52,165 nucleotides of DNA from Monosiga brevicollis MX1. Taxonomy: Eukaryota; Opisthokonta; Choanoflagellata; Craspedida; Salpingoecidae. Positions within the stretch are counted from its first letter, which is position 1. The number at the start of each line of letters is the position of its first letter. Where the stretch lies: the NCBI RefSeq assembly GCF_000002865.3, contig NW_001865056.1, forward strand, positions 5,303 to 57,467. Reading direction: 5' to 3'. Position numbers and translations under genes: made by a program. The notes under the pieces were generated by a model that ran no database searches, had not been told where the DNA came from, and saw only the letters and a program-made list of their open reading frames with translations. This document shows positions 1,591 through 50,608 of the stretch, piece by piece.

Positions 1591-2975
1591 ATGGCTCGTG
1601 GACCGAAGAAGCACTTGAAGCGCCTGGCCGCCCCCAAGCACTGGATGCTTGTGCGTAAAACCCTGTCTCCTTGCTAGTTCGGCTACCTGATGGCGGTGCA
1701 GCAGATGTGTGTGCGCCAGTCCAGATTCGCGCGACACATGTGTGGTCTTGGACTGGCGAGGCCATCTGCTACGTCTCTTCCGGTGCCTGCTGCCCTCCCC
1801 ACAGGTTGCCATGGCCGTCATTGCACTCATGTCTTCTCTTGGTGCGCTCTCGGGCTCGTGGTCCCTTCAACCATGTCGATGCGGCTGGTGGCGGTGTGGT
1901 TTGGGATCTTTTAGGACAAGCTGACCGGTCGCTATGCTCCCCGCCCGTCGACTGGTCCTCACAAGCTCCGTGAGTGCCTTCCTCTGGTCATCTTCCTCCG
2001 CAACCGCCTCAAATACGCCCTGACGTACCACGAGGTCAAGATGATCCTGAAGCAGCGCAAGGTATGATGACGAGTTGGTGGCCCGAAATTTTCCGGGCTT
2101 TGGGACGTCGAGCCCTGTACCATGCTATTGCGCTAGAAATGTGTTGTAGCGTGAACACACGTCGATGAATTGTGCTTGCTTTTCTTATCCACGCCCCAGG
2201 ACTCGTCCATGCTCACGTTACTTTGTTGCCTGCTGGTTGGTGATGCTTGATTTAGGTGTACGTTGATGGCAAGGCTCGCACCGACCTTACCTTCCCCACC
2301 GGTCTGATGGATGTCATCTCCATCCCCGACACCAACGAGCACTTCCGTCTCCTGTTCGACACTAAGGGTCGCTACACCGTCCACAAGATCCAGGATGACG
2401 AGGCCTCGGTACGTTGATTCTTTTCAATACGCCCAAAAAAAACGCTGCTCTCGTGGCGCGCAATGCTTGTCCTTTAGCTGCTGGTCATGTGTGTTGATCC
2501 TGACAATCTGGCGCGCATCTGTGTTGTTCGGCTTCTGTAGTTCAAGCTGTGCAAGGTCAAGCAGGCTGCCATTGGCCCCAACGCCGTCCCCTACGTTGTG
2601 ACCCACGATGGCCGCACCATCCGCTACCCTGACCCTCACATCAAGGTCAACGACACCGTCAAGGTTGACCTCGACAGCGGTCGCATCACCGATTTCATCA
2701 AGTTCGACATTGGCGTCCTTGTGCTTTGCACTGGCGGCCGTAACATGGGCCGTGTTGGTACGCTCATGTCGCGTGACAAGATGATGGGTGCCACCGACGT
2801 CGTCCACGTCCGTGACTCCGCTGGTCAGCAGTTCACCACTCTGCTCAGCAACGTCTTTGCTGTCGGCTCTGGCAAGAAGCCTGCCATCTCGCTTCCCCGC
2901 GGCAAGGGTGTCCGTCTCACCATTGCCGAGGAGCGCGATCGCCGCCTCAAGGACAAGGCCAAGGCCGCCGCGTAA
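1591..2975 (+). CDS. RPS4: 40S ribosomal protein eS4 (RPS4)
   Basis: Four exons: 1591-1650, 1915-2061, 2256-2408 and 2541-2975, giving 264 residues (human RPS4X has 263). The N-terminus [20 protein letters not shown], the [16 protein letters not shown] segment (S4-like RNA binding), the central [16 protein letters not shown] block, a KOW-type segment around GGRNMGRVG and the C-terminal [17 protein letters not shown] are all diagnostic of eS4. It is a core structural protein of the small cytosolic ribosomal subunit. Splice donors are GTGCGT, GTATGA and GTACGT, all in phase 0. Codon use is strongly C-ending at third positions, as expected for a highly expressed gene. The ATG follows a pyrimidine-rich leader. 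Nothing suggests truncation. Confidence 0.97.
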
Positions 2976-3664
2976 ATTTGCTCCCTTTTTCTTTGCTGTT
3001 TATTTTCGCGACGACCCCCTTAGCCAAAACGCGCGAGGTTTTGAAGTGCTTTATCGAGCAGCAAATCCCCAAAATCGAGCCATCAAAAAACCTCAGACAC
3101 TCCCTTGTTTCCTCGCTCTCCTTCAATCACGTCTGAGCTGAACGCGATGGTTCACCGGCCTTGAAAGCGCCTGCCACTTTGCTCACGCACATGTGACCTT
3201 CCACCCTCTTCCACTTGTCCTTTGCAGCTCCGATCTTATTGAGCGCAGGGTAGTTTGTCGTTCTATGACATTCTTCTTGTCGAGCTGAGATGGAAGCTGC
3301 TGGGTGCTTTGTTGGAACAAAGAGAAGAAGGAAAGACCTTTTCTCTCTCTCTCGAAAAACCTCTCAAACCTCTCTCAAACCTCTCTCCTCTCTTCTCTCT
3401 CTGAACTTTTTTCTGCTTTTTTTTTTGGTCGCAGGCGTTGTGGTGGTTGTGCAGAGGGAGGCGTTGCTGTACCTGCCTGCGTGGCGAGAGGAAGGTGGCT
3501 TGGTATTGGATGGGAGTAGCCTGGCCAAGGCGGGGCGGCGGCACCCAGCCGGCAAGGTTTTGAGTGCGCGTGCACACACGTTTTTATTATTATCCAGCAG
3601 GCTTGTTGTTTAGCCTCCTGACCTTCGCGTTGGTGGGCGTACAGTCGTGCCGTCCACGAGCACC
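2976..3664. other. Intergenic region with CT-rich patch
   Basis: Between RPS4 and the SH2 gene, both on +. A pyrimidine-rich segment at about 3338-3430 contains repeated CTCTCAAA units. No supportable gene seen. Confidence 0.6.
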
Positions 3665-4640
3665 ATGTCTGGTCGCATCTTCCCCTGGTTCCATGGCAAG
3701 CTGAGCCGGGACGAGGTCGAGAGCCGCCTCAAGGCTGTCTGTGCGGGTCGTGACTATGATGATGTCGTCTACCTCGTCCGCGAAAAATCCGATTCCGATC
3801 GGGTAGGGTCCGCCCCTTTTCGCCCGCCCCCTTTGCCTTTGGTGCCTCACAAACCTAACAGCCTCCCCTTTGCTTGACCCTGGACATAGGACCTGGTCCT
3901 TTCCTGGATGAATGTCAAAACCCAGAGTGCAACTCACTTTGTGGTCAAAATGATGGGCGCGGGCAGGTGCGTGCTCCGCCCAGCCACCCCGGGTGCGGTT
4001 TGGTGTGCGTGCTGTGATTTGTCAACCCCCTCCTTTGCTGTCCCACAGCGACAAGATGTACGTTCTGGACGCACAGGTGGAAGGGCGTACCAGCTACTTT
4101 TCCGAGATCCAAGAGCTTTTGGACCACTTTCACGTTCGTTCGTCGCCGCTCGTCCGTCACCATGACTTCTGGCACCATGACTTCTTTTGTCTCTCAACTT
4201 TGAGAGTAAAAACGACCTCGAGTTTAAAAAAAAACCCCTCGATTCAAATAACACCCCCGTCTCACGTCTGACCGTGTCGCCAATCTTTTCGGCGGTACCG
4301 CGCACCCGTGATGCAGAAGGAAGATGGAGGTTTTCCTGGTGGACCTCTCAGCTTTGCCGTGCCTTCGCCAGCCCCTTGCCCCTTGCCCGAGCCCGAGGGC
4401 ATCTCCATCCCTCCGCCGGAAACGGGTGGCCCCGCCCCCGACTTTGGCAATCTTCGTATCAACCCCAACAACTCACGTCGTGCTTCACAGCTCATGCAAG
4501 GTAGCTCCTCCAGCCCTGTGCCTGCCGCCGGTAGCCCCAATGCGCCGCCGCCCATTCCCACATCTCGTCGCCCACACGAAGCCGAAAGCTCCGATGCCCC
4601 CACCCCCGCACCCAAGAAGAAAGGCTGTATTCTGTTATGA
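3665..4640 (+). CDS. Single-SH2-domain protein with C-terminal CaaX box
   Basis: Four exons: 3665-3802, 3890-3966, 4049-4133 and 4317-4640, giving 207 residues. Residues 7-112 form an SH2 domain: it opens WFHGKLSRDEVESRL, has the phosphotyrosine-binding arginine in YLVRE (Arg39, the FLVRES position), then HFVVK, the YFSEIQELLDHF helix and a closing GPLSFAVP. The remaining ~95 residues are rich in Pro, Ser and Ala and look disordered. The protein ends in Lys-Lys-Lys-Gly-Cys-Ile-Leu-Leu. That is a polybasic stretch plus a CaaX box whose final Leu predicts geranylgeranylation, so membrane anchoring is inferred. No kinase, phosphatase or SH3 domain is present, so it looks like a membrane-tethered adaptor. 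Exon phases fit throughout. The SH2 call is firm; prenylation is a sequence prediction. Confidence 0.9.
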
Positions 4641-5472
4641 TGGAAATCCACCACCTGGAGACGAGGACAGGCGGTATTGCCCGAACCGTGCGAGTATCTC
4701 ACCCCCAGCTGGAATGACACCCCGACCCTTCCACGCACGCGCAAAGCGCACACACCGTGGCTTCTTCATGGGTGGATCTTCTCCCTCACGCCCCCACGCC
4801 ACCAAGTGGTATTTACCTCGCGTGCCTTTGTTCATGAGTCGACAAAAATATCCGTTGGCGCACGTTTGAGTTGCGGCAGCTCAACAATCTAGCACTGTAA
4901 TTATGACTCTGATGAGTAAGCTTTTCTACACTAGACTGGCAAGCTCAAGGCCTTGCCTCGGCTTTGTGCCCAACGTGTCAAAGAAGAGCATCGATTTTGG
5001 TGTGATTCTAGCATATTATGACAAGAGTGTGAGCAGAGGCTTGAGACCGCCTAGAGTGCACGCTTTTGTCGGACAAAACAAACAGGAAAGAGGGGGCACG
5101 AAGAGGTGTGTAAAGGTCAGTCAAGCGATGGCATAGCACATCATCAAAAGAAACTGGTGGTCTCGCTGAAACCGTGGCACAGGGCTTGATCCATCGTACT
5201 CGGATCCAATGGTTGACCAGTGCATAGTACAAGAAAGAGGAAACACGGGCCCATTCAACAAATGACCACAGCCAATCCATCTTCCCCCAACCACAGACGC
5301 GAGCCAAAACTCAAAGGGAGGAGAATGCGAGCGAGACGGGTGACGGCTGGTGTCGCGGGGCAGACACAGCTCAAAGACCAAAGCAAACAAGAAGCAAATC
5401 CGAAGCTAAACCCCAAATGCAAGTAGCTGCCTCAATGCTGACCCTTGCGGCAAGCCCTTAAGTGACGGGACT
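4641..5472. other. Convergent intergenic region (3' flanks)
   Basis: Lies between the 3' ends of the SH2 gene (+) and the ORP gene (-). No exon-like signal or RNA gene recognised. Confidence 0.6.
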
Positions 5473-7602
5473 TCACCACAAGGGGGGCAGGCTCTTGATC
5501 GACTGCTCCTTCTTCTGACGCCAAAAACCACCCTTGTACAGCCACTCGGCGCGCTCAGCCTCGCGAGAGAGTGCGGGAACACCCGAGGGGAGCTGCGCCG
5601 GCTTGGGGGCGGGGACACGACGATACTCGAAGAAACGAGGCTCGTGTTGTTTGCCCTCCGCCTCGAGCTCCTGTCGCCGCACCCGCTGCAGCTCTTCCAC
5701 GCGCAGTTTCTCTGCTCGTACAAGTTTGGATGGAGCGCATACATGAGAAGGAAGTGAAAGATGCGAGCCCAACCAGACATGCACATGCACATGCACTAGA
5801 CGCGGCGAGACAAAGGCAGCAGATGAGGACTCGTACCTTCGGCGGCAGCCTCTTCCTTGGCCTCTTCCCAAAGGCGCTGATCCGGGCGATTGCGCGAGTC
5901 GGTGGCCAGCAGCAAATCGCGTTGTCCATTGCCCTCGGGCGGCAGTTCATTCAGCTCCATGGCAAACTTTGTAAAGCCAAACTCGTGATCAATGGATTCT
6001 GTCGATGCGTGCCAAGTTGGGTGGGCGGTTGAGCAGAGGCGTGGGAATTGTTGGGCAGGCTTTGAAAATACATGAGAATACCTTGTTCAGGCACGGGATT
6101 GGTCCACAACTCCTCCTGGGTGTCATCGCGCACCAGCTGCACGAAAATTCATTTCAGCGCCAAGGGACCATGGTCCGCAAAGAAGAAGCGTAAGATAAAA
6201 ACCAAGCGCACCAACCAAGCGACGGGGACCTGACCACCGCAGCCACCATGATGACCCACCTTTTCGTTCCATTTGCCGGAAAAGGTGGCAAACGGCTTTT
6301 TAGGGTTAGCCACGTCAATGACCGTGCCCTTGACGGCATACTTTTGACTCTTCTTGAAGCGCGAGTACTGGAAGAGCTCGACCTTGCACGTATCACCCGT
6401 GCGACAGTTGACGACACACATCCGGCCGTGGTGGTCGACCCACTTGTTGCCTTGAAAGCAGACCAGGACAACCAAGCGCAGGGGAAGGATGAGGCCACAG
6501 GCCATACCAGACATGGGGGGGGGGGGGGGGGGGATGGAGAGGGCAGCCTGGTGAGGCAGCCCAGCCAGACCAGCCACCCAGCTCGAGTCGAGGAGCCCTG
6601 CATCTGCAAAGCAACAACATACCGGAAACAATGTCTTCCACGTGTGTCACCACTTTTTGCCACTCGTAGGTCTGAACACCGGGCATGATGGGTGGGTGAG
6701 TAAAATAGCAAAGCAAAGTGCGTGGCTGGCAAGGAAATCCCATTCATGGATATGTGCTCAGGGGATGGGGTTCATCAATCTCGGAAGTCGGGAGCGGATC
6801 GGGGCCGTCAGCGACGCACCTCATCGTACGCGGGAAAAGAGACACGAATAAAGCCCTGGGGAGTAACCTTGAGGCTGGAGGGACGGAGAGAGGACTTGAC
6901 ACCCGCCTCTTGATAAAAGGTCCAGAGGGAGGATTCGGCCACGCACACGCTAATGGGCGGGTGATGGCTAACTTGCTCCGCAAAAAAGCGAAAGCCGCGC
7001 TCGGGCCGGACTTCGTCAAAAGTCTCGCCAAGAATGGGATTGAAAGGTTTACGCCCGGAGCGAAAATGAGAGCTGCCGTACGAGGCAACGGCAAAAGCGC
7101 CCACCCACATGAGGCGCTCGCGAGGATCGGCAGCAGCCGCAGCATTGTCGAGGAGGTGGCTGTGCTCAAGCTCTTCGCAGAGGCGCTGCAGAGCGCTGAG
7201 GGGCTCGTTGAAGGTGACGGGCATGGCAATGTGGGAGAGTTTCTTGCCAATGTTCTTCTTCAAAACCCCCCAGAGGGAGTTGCTCTGCAGTGCATGGTCG
7301 TGCTTGACCGAGAGGTGGCTACGGCGCTCGTAATCGTTATCGGCAGCCCAGCGCAGGCTCTCGCCAACCGGCTCGTCCTCGGCCAGATCCAAGGCCCCCG
7401 CTTTGGCCTCGATACCGATTGACTCGTCCAGCTCGTCATCCTGTTCATCGTCCAACACGGCCACCTATCGGATTGACGCGGCCACTTTCAGTCAGTCTGC
7501 AGGCAGGTTGGCCAGTACGCGCAGGCTCAAAGAGCTCAACGGGGGTCGAGGAACGAGGCACCGTACGTCCGTGCTGGCCGCCAACACCTTGCTTTCCGCC
7601 AT
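5473..7602 (-). CDS. Oxysterol-binding protein-related protein (short ORP)
   Basis: Seven exons read on the minus strand: 7602-7567, 7464-6820, 6671-6623, 6450-6260, 6136-6082, 5998-5837 and 5711-5473, giving 458 residues. It is essentially a bare lipid-transfer (ORD) domain. The family signature EQVSHHPP is at about residues 175-182, preceded by KPFNPILGETF (the Lys/Asn loop that contacts PI4P headgroups) and by a short lid segment. Downstream are TYEWQKVVTHVEDIVSG and FSGKWNEKV, then the C-terminal TDSRNRPDQRLWEEAKEEA stretch typical of ORPs. There is no PH domain, ankyrin repeat or FFAT motif in the model, so it resembles the short ORPs that exchange sterol or phospholipid for PI4P between membranes. 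The first exon codes for only 12 residues and is the least certain part. Intron 3 contains a run of about 19 G. Confidence 0.92.
6515..6533. repeat. Poly-G run inside ORP intron 3
   Basis: About 19 consecutive G (on +), within the intron between exons ending 6623 and starting 6450 on the minus strand. Confidence 0.85.
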
Positions 7603-27633: not shown

Positions 27634-29364
27634 CTAGCAGGTGCAGACTCGAATAGCCTCTAGAGCAGCTGCCGAAAGCCATGGCTCATCGCATGGAGGC
27701 TTGGCCTCCGTGACCCCATTCGACAGATCAGCATACGCTGCCAGAGGCGGGAGTGGCAAGTGAGGGTTGGAGCCTCGCTCACTCCTATGATGAAGCAATG
27801 CGAGTGAGAGCTGGGCAAGGCTTAGGCTGTTGATCGGGGAACACATTTCCGCAAGCTGTGCCGATCGCAAAGCAAGGTGTGGCGTTTGAGGCAGAAAAAC
27901 CAACTTGGGCACGCCAGAGTGATACAGCGCATGTGCCTTGAGGCAGTTGTAGGCCGCAAACAAGTCATCATGCTTACGCTGCGACACAGGTAAGAGTGCC
28001 AGACCCAAACGCAGGCATCAGTTTGACCAGCAACTGTCAGCCAAAGGCCTGAAAACGCGCTGCTGGGCACCTGAGATAGATAGGCCGATATTCCTGCCTC
28101 GTCGACACCGCACAACTCGCCAAGTCGTCGCGTCGCCTGGGCGCGGGCAGCGCAGAGCTAAGCATGCGGGTGCGTGCACGGACCAGATCGTCGAGGAGGA
28201 GTGAGGTCCGCCGTGTTGAAAGAGGCCATAACCGGCATGCCGGCATCCAACCAACCTGCTTGTCCCAGGCAGCCTCTTGCAGATCAATCTCTTTGCGACA
28301 CCAGACGTGTTCACAGACAACGTCGATCGTTGGTCGAGCCTCGGGTTGAAACTGTCATCACAAGGGATGGGCATCAGTGACCAAAGTCAACAGGCACTGG
28401 TATGTCTGACCCTAATCCCGTAACGCGTCGATGTGCGCCACGCTTTCCCCCCTCTCCCTATCTGATCCCACCCCAGCCGTCCCTGGACATCTTGTGTTCT
28501 CTCCTGTGAACAGCCGCCTTCCACTGCGCCTCCAAAGCGACGGACCTCGAGCATTTGCCGTAAGAGGCGCTCCAGGTCGACGGAGATCCACGGCGGAAAT
28601 TGCACATGTAGGCGACGCCGAGCCCGCCGCATCTTAGCATCCCGCTGCTCCAACTCATCGCGTTGAAGGGAAGTGAGCGAGGCCTGATCCTCGTCTTCGC
28701 CCGCCAAGTCAAAGGGAAAATCGCCCGCGACCATGAGGAAGAGTATGACCCCGAGACTATAGACATCAGCCTTGCGAGGGTTGTAAGTGGAATTGTAGCT
28801 GACTTCTGGAGCACTGTAGCTGCGCGTACCACAACCGGTAGCACTGACAGGCGCGCTGTCATCGGCACTGGGCGCAGCCAGGCCAAAATCAATGAGACAG
28901 CAGTTATCGCCGTGCAGAAGAACGTTGTCAGCCTTGAGATCACGGAGCGCCAAGCCAGCGCGGTGGAATCCCTGCACGGCCAGGGCCAACTGGGCAAAGA
29001 GACGGCGGGCGTCTTTTTCGCGCAGGCGGTGGACTTCGTCAAGGCGGGTGGCGAGGTCGCCACCGGGTGCAAGCTGAAGCACAAAGAAGACGTGAAAATC
29101 ATCCTCGAGCCACTCGATCAGACGAATGGCAAAGGGAACGTGAGTGCCGACGCGCAGGCAGTAGGCCTCGAGGGCAGCGCTGCGGATCTCATCATCGGCG
29201 CGCAACCTGGCCTTGTTAAGAACCTTGATGGCCACAGGACACCGAGTCAGGCGGTGCACTGCTGGGTAAACGGTGGCGAAAGCACCTTCTCCGAGTTGAC
29301 CTTGAGCGCGACTGATCTCATACTTGCGGCTGAGCACCGGGCTGACCCAAGTCGAAGTGGCCAT
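27634..29364 (-). CDS. Serine/threonine protein kinase with uncharacterised C-terminal region
   Basis: Four exons on the minus strand: 29364-28546, 28351-28256, 28157-28071 and 27978-27634, giving 448 residues. The kinase domain spans about 14-305: Gly loop LGEGAFATVYPA (24-35), VAIK lysine 47, catalytic loop LRDLKADN with Asp142, Lys144 and Asn147, DFG at 159-161, and GTRSYSAPE closing the activation segment. The His of the usual HRD is Leu140. The DLKADN loop and small activation segment suggest a CAMK/ULK-like Ser/Thr kinase. About 140 residues follow, predicted mostly helical and without a domain I recognise (DLFAAYNCLKAHALYHSG, then Leu-rich helices). All catalytic residues except the HRD His are present, so activity is expected. 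Start: the ATG at 29364 gives MATSTW; an in-frame GTG just upstream is not a likely start. Confidence 0.88.
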
Positions 29365-30031
29365 AATCACCCAACCCCGATGGTTCCTGACCCGCTCACC
29401 TGTCTCACTCCAGCCAAACGGCTCGTCCCATCCAGCTTCCGGCTACCAGAAGAGGCATGTCACGACCTCACACGCACACACACGCACACACGCACACACG
29501 CACACACGCGCACACACACGTTCGTCTGCCACCCCCTGCCCTTAGATCAGTGGCAATGGAAACGTCAATGTGAATATGGTGAATGCTTCTCTCTTTAAAA
29601 AAAAAATAAAAAATCTGCAAGGGGCTAGGCCCCTCTGTGACGGTATCTTGCTAGGGCCATCGAATGAAGCAAGTCGGCTAACAAGAGTCAAAAGTAAATC
29701 GACGCCCAGGGCTTTGACCAGGGCTTTGACAGGCAGTTGGGTTGTGATGGTTTCGGGTCGGATAGACTGGATGTGAGCAACGCGTTGAATTGGGTTTTGG
29801 AGAAATCGTTGCGCTCAAACGGGGCTGATTCCGAGAGCTGGTAACTAGGTTTACCAATTCACCAAGCACCAAGCCCGAACAAGAACAACCAAGAAGAGAA
29901 ACAACAACGCCAACGCGGCAGGTGGTCTGTGCATAGAGCCCATCGCGCCGATGTAACGGCTCGCGTCCAGGCCGGCAATCGACGGGACATCCACACACAG
30001 GGCCAGTCTGGCTTTGTTGGGGAAGCAGGTC
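29365..30031. other. Intergenic region with CA-type microsatellite
   Basis: Upstream flank of the kinase gene and downstream flank of RPS18. It contains a CACG/CACA array (about 29468-29520) and an A-rich tract near 29596-29612. Confidence 0.6.
29468..29520. repeat. CACACG microsatellite
   Basis: Tandem CACACG/CACACA units, just upstream of the kinase start. Confidence 0.85.

Positions 30032-45550: not shown

Positions 45551-50608
<5,058 letters not shown>

Follow-up and report, generated by a model that had tools for sequence, protein, structure and literature searches.

Does the choanoflagellate Monosiga brevicollis encode a phosphotyrosine reader that carries its own signal for lipid attachment? 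The question is raised by a small gene in a stretch of 52,165 bp (the window, contig C39 positions 5303-57467; the genome comprises 39.47 Mb in 57 contigs), whose predicted product has a single SH2 domain and ends in a polybasic CaaX sequence. Coordinates are those of the window unless a contig is given. Four exons are predicted, which total 624 nt when spliced and encode 207 amino acids plus a stop codon; all three introns have GT..AG borders, and an in-frame stop codon at 3611-3613 lies upstream of the ATG at 3665. The features of the gene are as follows.

3665..3802, plus strand: exon 1, residues 1-46, with the start Met, the SH2 alpha-A Arg15 and the beta-B Arg39
3803..3889, plus strand: intron 1, 87 nt, GT..AG
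3890..3966, plus strand: exon 2, core of the SH2 domain including the beta-D His (THF)
3967..4048, plus strand: intron 2, 82 nt, GT..AG
4049..4133, plus strand: exon 3, region of the SH2 C-terminal helix, to residue 100
4134..4316, plus strand: intron 3, 183 nt, GT..AG; its retention would bring an in-frame stop at 4269-4271, short of the tail
4317..4640, plus strand: exon 4, residues 101-207 and stop, with the end of the SH2 domain (KEDGGFPGGPLSFAVP), the linker and the CaaX tail
4365..4613, plus strand: Pro/Ser-rich linker, residues 117-199, without tyrosine
4614..4640, plus strand: polybasic CaaX tail KKKGCILL and stop, the only exact pattern match in the genome

The first-pass annotation had described a protein of 207 residues with one SH2 domain, an intact binding Arg39, a Pro/Ser-rich linker and a KKKGCILL end, and the rebuilt gene, in which Arg39 falls within YLVRE, together with a Pfam search bears this description out; the gene is very probably real. 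An additional intron within exon 4 (for example with a GTAGCT donor near 4501) was rejected by eye, as position +5 is not G. The Pfam SH2 model (PF00017) matches residues 8-99 over its full length (1-77 of 77) with an E-value of 8.1e-8 and 32.7 bits against a cut-off of 21. It is the sole match above cut-off among Pfam matches with E-values up to 1, none of which is to a Ras-type GTPase domain, and a weak match to DUF1707 (14.6 bits) was discarded as falling below its cut-off of 27.6; an NCBIfam search of the protein gave no match. The closest PDB sequences are the RasGAP and Grb14 SH2 domains, with E-values of 1.6e-5 to 2.1e-4 that point to a diverged SH2 domain lacking a clear orthologue among solved structures.

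Alignment with SH2 domains from the same genome (14 rows, one of which, L001, is unusable, its match being on the minus strand) shows that Trp8, Arg15, Arg39 and the beta-D His of THF are kept. We take Arg39 to be the beta-B binding Arg of the FLVRES motif, and Arg15 and the THF His to be the supporting alpha-A Arg and beta-D His. The beta-D6 position is occupied by Val; Src-type SH2 domains have Lys here. The junction of exons 3 and 4 (4133/4317) falls at the C-terminal end of the domain.

The CaaX tail lies in exon 4, and of the alternatives considered the one that survives best is that this exon is not used, or not always, intron 3 being retained or another exon spliced in instead; the product would then be soluble, its SH2 domain truncated at the end. 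At 183 nt intron 3 exceeds the other two in length, its donor (GTTCGT) appears weak and less typical by eye, and the frame that reads through it stays open as far as the stop at 4269-4271. Against this, the start of exon 4 (KEDGGFPGGPLSFAVP) looks like the usual end of an SH2 domain, and codon usage favours the modelled frame. A codon-usage score was derived from the 16,491 codons of 29 long frames at loci in the genome; these were picked by open length alone and some are common to several loci, so the score is support and not proof. In the model frame exon 4 reaches +0.092 per codon, the only positive score of the six, the other five lying between -0.08 and -0.22, and the linker and tail alone also score +0.092 versus -0.045 to -0.211 in the other frames. 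Intron 3, by comparison, scores -0.168 in the frame that reads through it; another of its frames reaches +0.045. The model frame also ranks first of six for exons 1 and 3; for exon 2 (25 codons) it is not at the top, one reverse frame scoring 0.095 versus 0.065. A control exon in the neighbouring gene (2541-2975) scores +0.255. We regard loss of exon 4 from the message as unlikely; retention of intron 3 might also serve the cell as a natural means of switching between a soluble and a membrane-bound form.

If exon 4 is used as modelled, what kind of end does it supply? The KKKGCILL codons occupy 4614-4637 and are followed by a stop codon at 4638-4640, such that Cys204 (4626-4628) begins a C-terminal Cys-aliphatic-aliphatic-Leu sequence, CILL, which together with the stop spans 4626-4640. 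Twenty GTPase loci of the same genome were examined for C-terminal Cys ends, and a basic end followed by Cys-a-a-Leu is present in five of them: KKKGGCIIL (QKKKGGCIIL) in a Ras-type GTPase with R-Ras2 as its best match (L037), KKRSGCMIL (TKKRSGCMIL) in a GTPase identified by search as Rac (L040), KKRGCVLL (EKKRGCVLL) in one identified by search as Cdc42 (L042), and KSKSGCVLL and KKKAGPCVLL at two further GTPase loci (L039 and L045). Six of the 20 have Rab-like CC ends (L029, L030, L033, L041, L044 and L047), L043 ends in GGGCCLLM and L046 in CAC, and no clear Cys end was found at the remaining seven (L028, L031, L032, L034, L035, L036 and L038), although L036 has an SLCTVL end in a frame without an established tie to its GTPase. 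On contig C56 a Ras-family match is followed, some 0.4 kb on, by a KKKCVIL end. By sequence, KKKGCILL is thus the same kind of end as those of this organism's Ras and Rho GTPases.

Genes for the enzymes that would process such an end are present in the same genome. The gene at L017 encodes a GGTase-I beta subunit, with a best PDB match at an E-value of 8.5e-35 versus 1.1e-17 for the best FTase beta, and there is a Rab GGTase beta gene (L019), an ICMT gene and an RCE1-like gene; two further prenyltransferase-family matches are on contigs C55 (L018) and C32 (L020/L022/L024). GGTase-I is described as targeting CaaL/I/M ends (PMC11152559), and a paper cited there reports, in its title, that dual specificity is enhanced by a polybasic region upstream. 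The same source describes a yeast assay in which human FTase was the main enzyme to modify several CxxL ends (e.g. CLLL and CLVL), which bears on the kind of lipid. The lipid predicted for the tail is therefore likely, but not certain, to be geranylgeranyl. The first-pass annotation had read the tail as a prenylation signal that would give a constitutive geranylgeranyl anchor, and this reading is supported in part: the in-frame polybasic CaaX, its terminal Leu and the intact SH2 domain are as it proposed, and the sequence context, with prenylation genes present and similar ends on the organism's own Cdc42, Rac and Ras-type proteins, agrees with prenylation.

How often would such a tail arise by chance? 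A strict nucleotide pattern, [K/R]3-x-Cys-(NTN)-(NTN)-(Leu/Phe)-TRR, in which TRR covers the three stop codons and TGG, matches once in both strands of the 39.47 Mb, at the SH2-CaaX gene, and the reversed control gives no match. With residue frequencies taken from the 29 long frames (Lys being 2.9% of residues) and positions treated as independent, 100 proteins should contain about 2.5e-5 ends of the form [K/R]3xCaaX (X = L/M/I/F). A looser pattern, with two basic residues and any last residue, gives 39 matches versus 30 in the reversed control when the spacing is one residue and 41 versus 24 when it is two, so most of the looser matches are probably due to chance. Three basic residues, one spacer, NTN-NTN and a stop, with any last residue, occur at four places, namely the SH2-CaaX gene, C36:163405, C40:539509 and C56:2861635, each present in both looser lists with an offset of three bases. 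Searched at the protein level, the genome shows no paralogue of the tail apart from the gene itself, the three further matches having E-values of 0.07-0.38.

These figures bear on a second alternative, in which the tail is a chance ending of a weakly constrained linker and stays unmodified. The linker is of low complexity and no such end turned up in the 20 other SH2 regions read, yet the small expectation, the single exact match and the scarcity of Lys all argue the other way, and an end born by chance might still be a substrate; we think this somewhat less probable than loss of exon 4. Class II PDZ ligands end in hydrophobic-x-hydrophobic, and -ILL fits this form. It is nevertheless improbable, even counting the more than 150 PDZ domains given for M. 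brevicollis (PMC8512817), that the end of a real SH2 protein serves as such a ligand, linking phosphotyrosine proteins to PDZ scaffolds without a lipid, as the Cys at -4, the aliphatic residues, the Leu and the three Lys together suit a GGTase-I substrate, the organism's own Cdc42, Rac and Ras-type GTPases have similar ends, and the last three residues would be lost in prenyl processing.

Whether other SH2 genes in the genome share this organization was approached through 114 SH2 profile matches, which form 91 clusters. Twenty of these regions were read downstream of the SH2 domain in the three frames of the match strand, and the other 71 were covered by the pattern searches alone, in one of which 100 of 146 places were listed. 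No instance of three consecutive basic residues before a Cys was found in the 20 of 91 regions read, which contain 14 loose CaaX-like ends, 13 of them distinct. Two of these, RRPRAWCFIF at L055 and RRSTRCCCVC (one end shared by L062 and L063), carry three Arg in the stretch of eight residues that precedes the Cys and were set aside as chance, having neither consecutive basic residues adjacent to the Cys nor an aliphatic pair, their CaaX positions holding aromatic or other non-aliphatic residues. In two SH2 regions, L064 (FSNPMYA) and L066, SNPMYA occurs just after the SH2 domain; a similar motif is reported for an M. brevicollis cadherin-SH2 protein. The SH2-CaaX gene is itself missing from the 114 matches because its SH2 domain is split over exons, and other split SH2 genes were probably missed as well.

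Comparison by eye of the looser-pattern places with the 114 matches shows just one within 6 kb downstream of an SH2 match on the same strand, on contig C36; the next-nearest are 14 kb (C56) and 19 kb (C55) away. A [K/R]3xCxxx place on C43, which lies 6.6 kb beyond an SH2 match, was rejected as too distant (among the 100 of 146 matches listed). The C36 sequence at 163408-163431, AAG AAG GGT TGC CTC GTC ATG TAG, encodes KKGCLVM and a stop and is preceded by a Lys/Arg codon; this [K/R]KKGCLVM end (C36:163405-163431) is 1.37 kb downstream of an SH2 match on the same (plus) strand at C36:161849-162037 (30.3 bits, model positions 1-62 of 77). The two are in different frames, so an intron would be needed to join them. 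Among the matches listed there is no kinase match at this place (135 of 686 candidates scored), and the closest listed Ras-family match upstream on the same strand ends 10.3 kb before it. Chance alone would give 0.0055 such pairings if just the other three places with [K/R]3xC-aliphatic-aliphatic are counted and the reach is 1.6 kb, 0.14 with 78 other matches (some places being counted twice) at 1.6 kb, and 0.54 and 0.72 with 78 matches at 6 or 8 kb. We note this place on C36 as a possible second SH2-CaaX gene and a lead. A more speculative extension, which we put forward as doubtful, is that prenylated SH2 readers with Rho-GTPase-like tails form a class in choanoflagellates, comprising the SH2-CaaX protein and at least one more (C36); phosphotyrosine readers would then be placed on membranes in a way that is absent from animals or was lost in them.

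The most plausible scenario for the SH2-CaaX gene, and one that we consider probable as a prediction from the gene, is that its product, a small SH2 adaptor with no enzymatic activity, is prenylated and membrane-anchored through Cys204. Cys204 would be prenylated, most likely by GGTase-I, after which RCE1 would clip and ICMT would methylate the tail. As with Cdc42 and Rac, the lipid and the lysines would then hold the protein on negatively charged cytoplasmic membranes, where the SH2 domain would read phosphotyrosine on receptors or scaffolds. The Pro/Ser-rich linker would act as a tether and possibly as a docking site, with an adaptor role if it binds SH3-type partners; alternatively the protein could cap phosphotyrosines close to the membrane and so shield them. 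Lacking tyrosine, the linker would offer no docking site of its own to other SH2 proteins; its residues 154-157 are RRAS, which we presume to be a PKA-type motif. Transcription and splicing as modelled, all of the modification steps, membrane binding, phosphotyrosine binding and recruitment of partners are steps that we infer. The gene model, the SH2 domain (Pfam match and PDB relatives), its binding residues, the frame of exon 4, the GTPase ends, the enzyme genes and the uniqueness of the pattern speak for the anchored adaptor; the absence of a tail paralogue, the lack of a [K/R]3 tail in the 20 of 91 SH2 regions read, Val at beta-D6, the weak-looking donor of intron 3 and the frame of exon 2 speak against it.

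Comparison with familiar systems places the predicted protein between several of them. Like the Rho/Ras-family GTPases (Cdc42, Rac and Ras) it has a basic stretch immediately before CaaL, KKKGCILL compared with KKRGCVLL of the organism's own Cdc42, but it would anchor an SH2 module in place of a GTPase domain. SAP/SH2D1A similarly consists of a single SH2 domain with a short additional region and lacks an enzyme domain, although it differs in having neither a linker of about 80 residues nor a CaaX tail, and it is not known to carry a lipid. Src-family kinases share the feature of an SH2 domain held at the membrane by a lipid and basic residues; in Src this is an N-terminal myristate on Gly2, and SH3 and kinase domains are present too. 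N-myristoylation of this type needs a Gly directly after the start Met, whereas the SH2-CaaX protein begins MSGR, with Ser as its second residue, and its lipid signal lies at the C-terminus. CAAX ends have also been grafted onto engineered signalling modules to hold them at the membrane, but the SH2-CaaX protein is a natural one.

The combination of an SH2 domain with a polybasic CaaX end, in a gene known as a prediction, is well supported as an unusual one. To our knowledge, how M. brevicollis phosphotyrosine readers find membranes has been little studied. Tyrosine kinases, phosphatases and SH2 domains are described there in numbers comparable to or above those of mammals (PMC3507883). In the literature listings and abstracts searched, which lay outside the main choanoflagellate SH2 and kinase surveys, no naturally occurring SH2 protein that ends in CaaX came up; a search combining SH2, CaaX and choanoflagellate gave no match, and no word beginning with prenyl- occurs in the portions of the tyrosine-signalling literature examined. 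If the tail is prenylated, an SH2 protein would be placed on membranes awaiting tyrosine signals, and Rho-type lipid anchors and tyrosine kinase signalling would be joined in one small protein.

Among the other contents of the window, the SH2-CaaX gene is preceded by what we take, by eye, to be a ribosomal protein S4-like gene (1591-2975, plus strand) and followed by what is presumably, also by eye, an oxysterol-binding-protein-like gene (5400-7600, minus strand). Further along, an open frame at 28390-29442 on the minus strand has a protein kinase domain (Pfam Pkinase, E-value 8.5e-43), and another at 48604-49875 on the plus strand starts with a long polyglutamine run.
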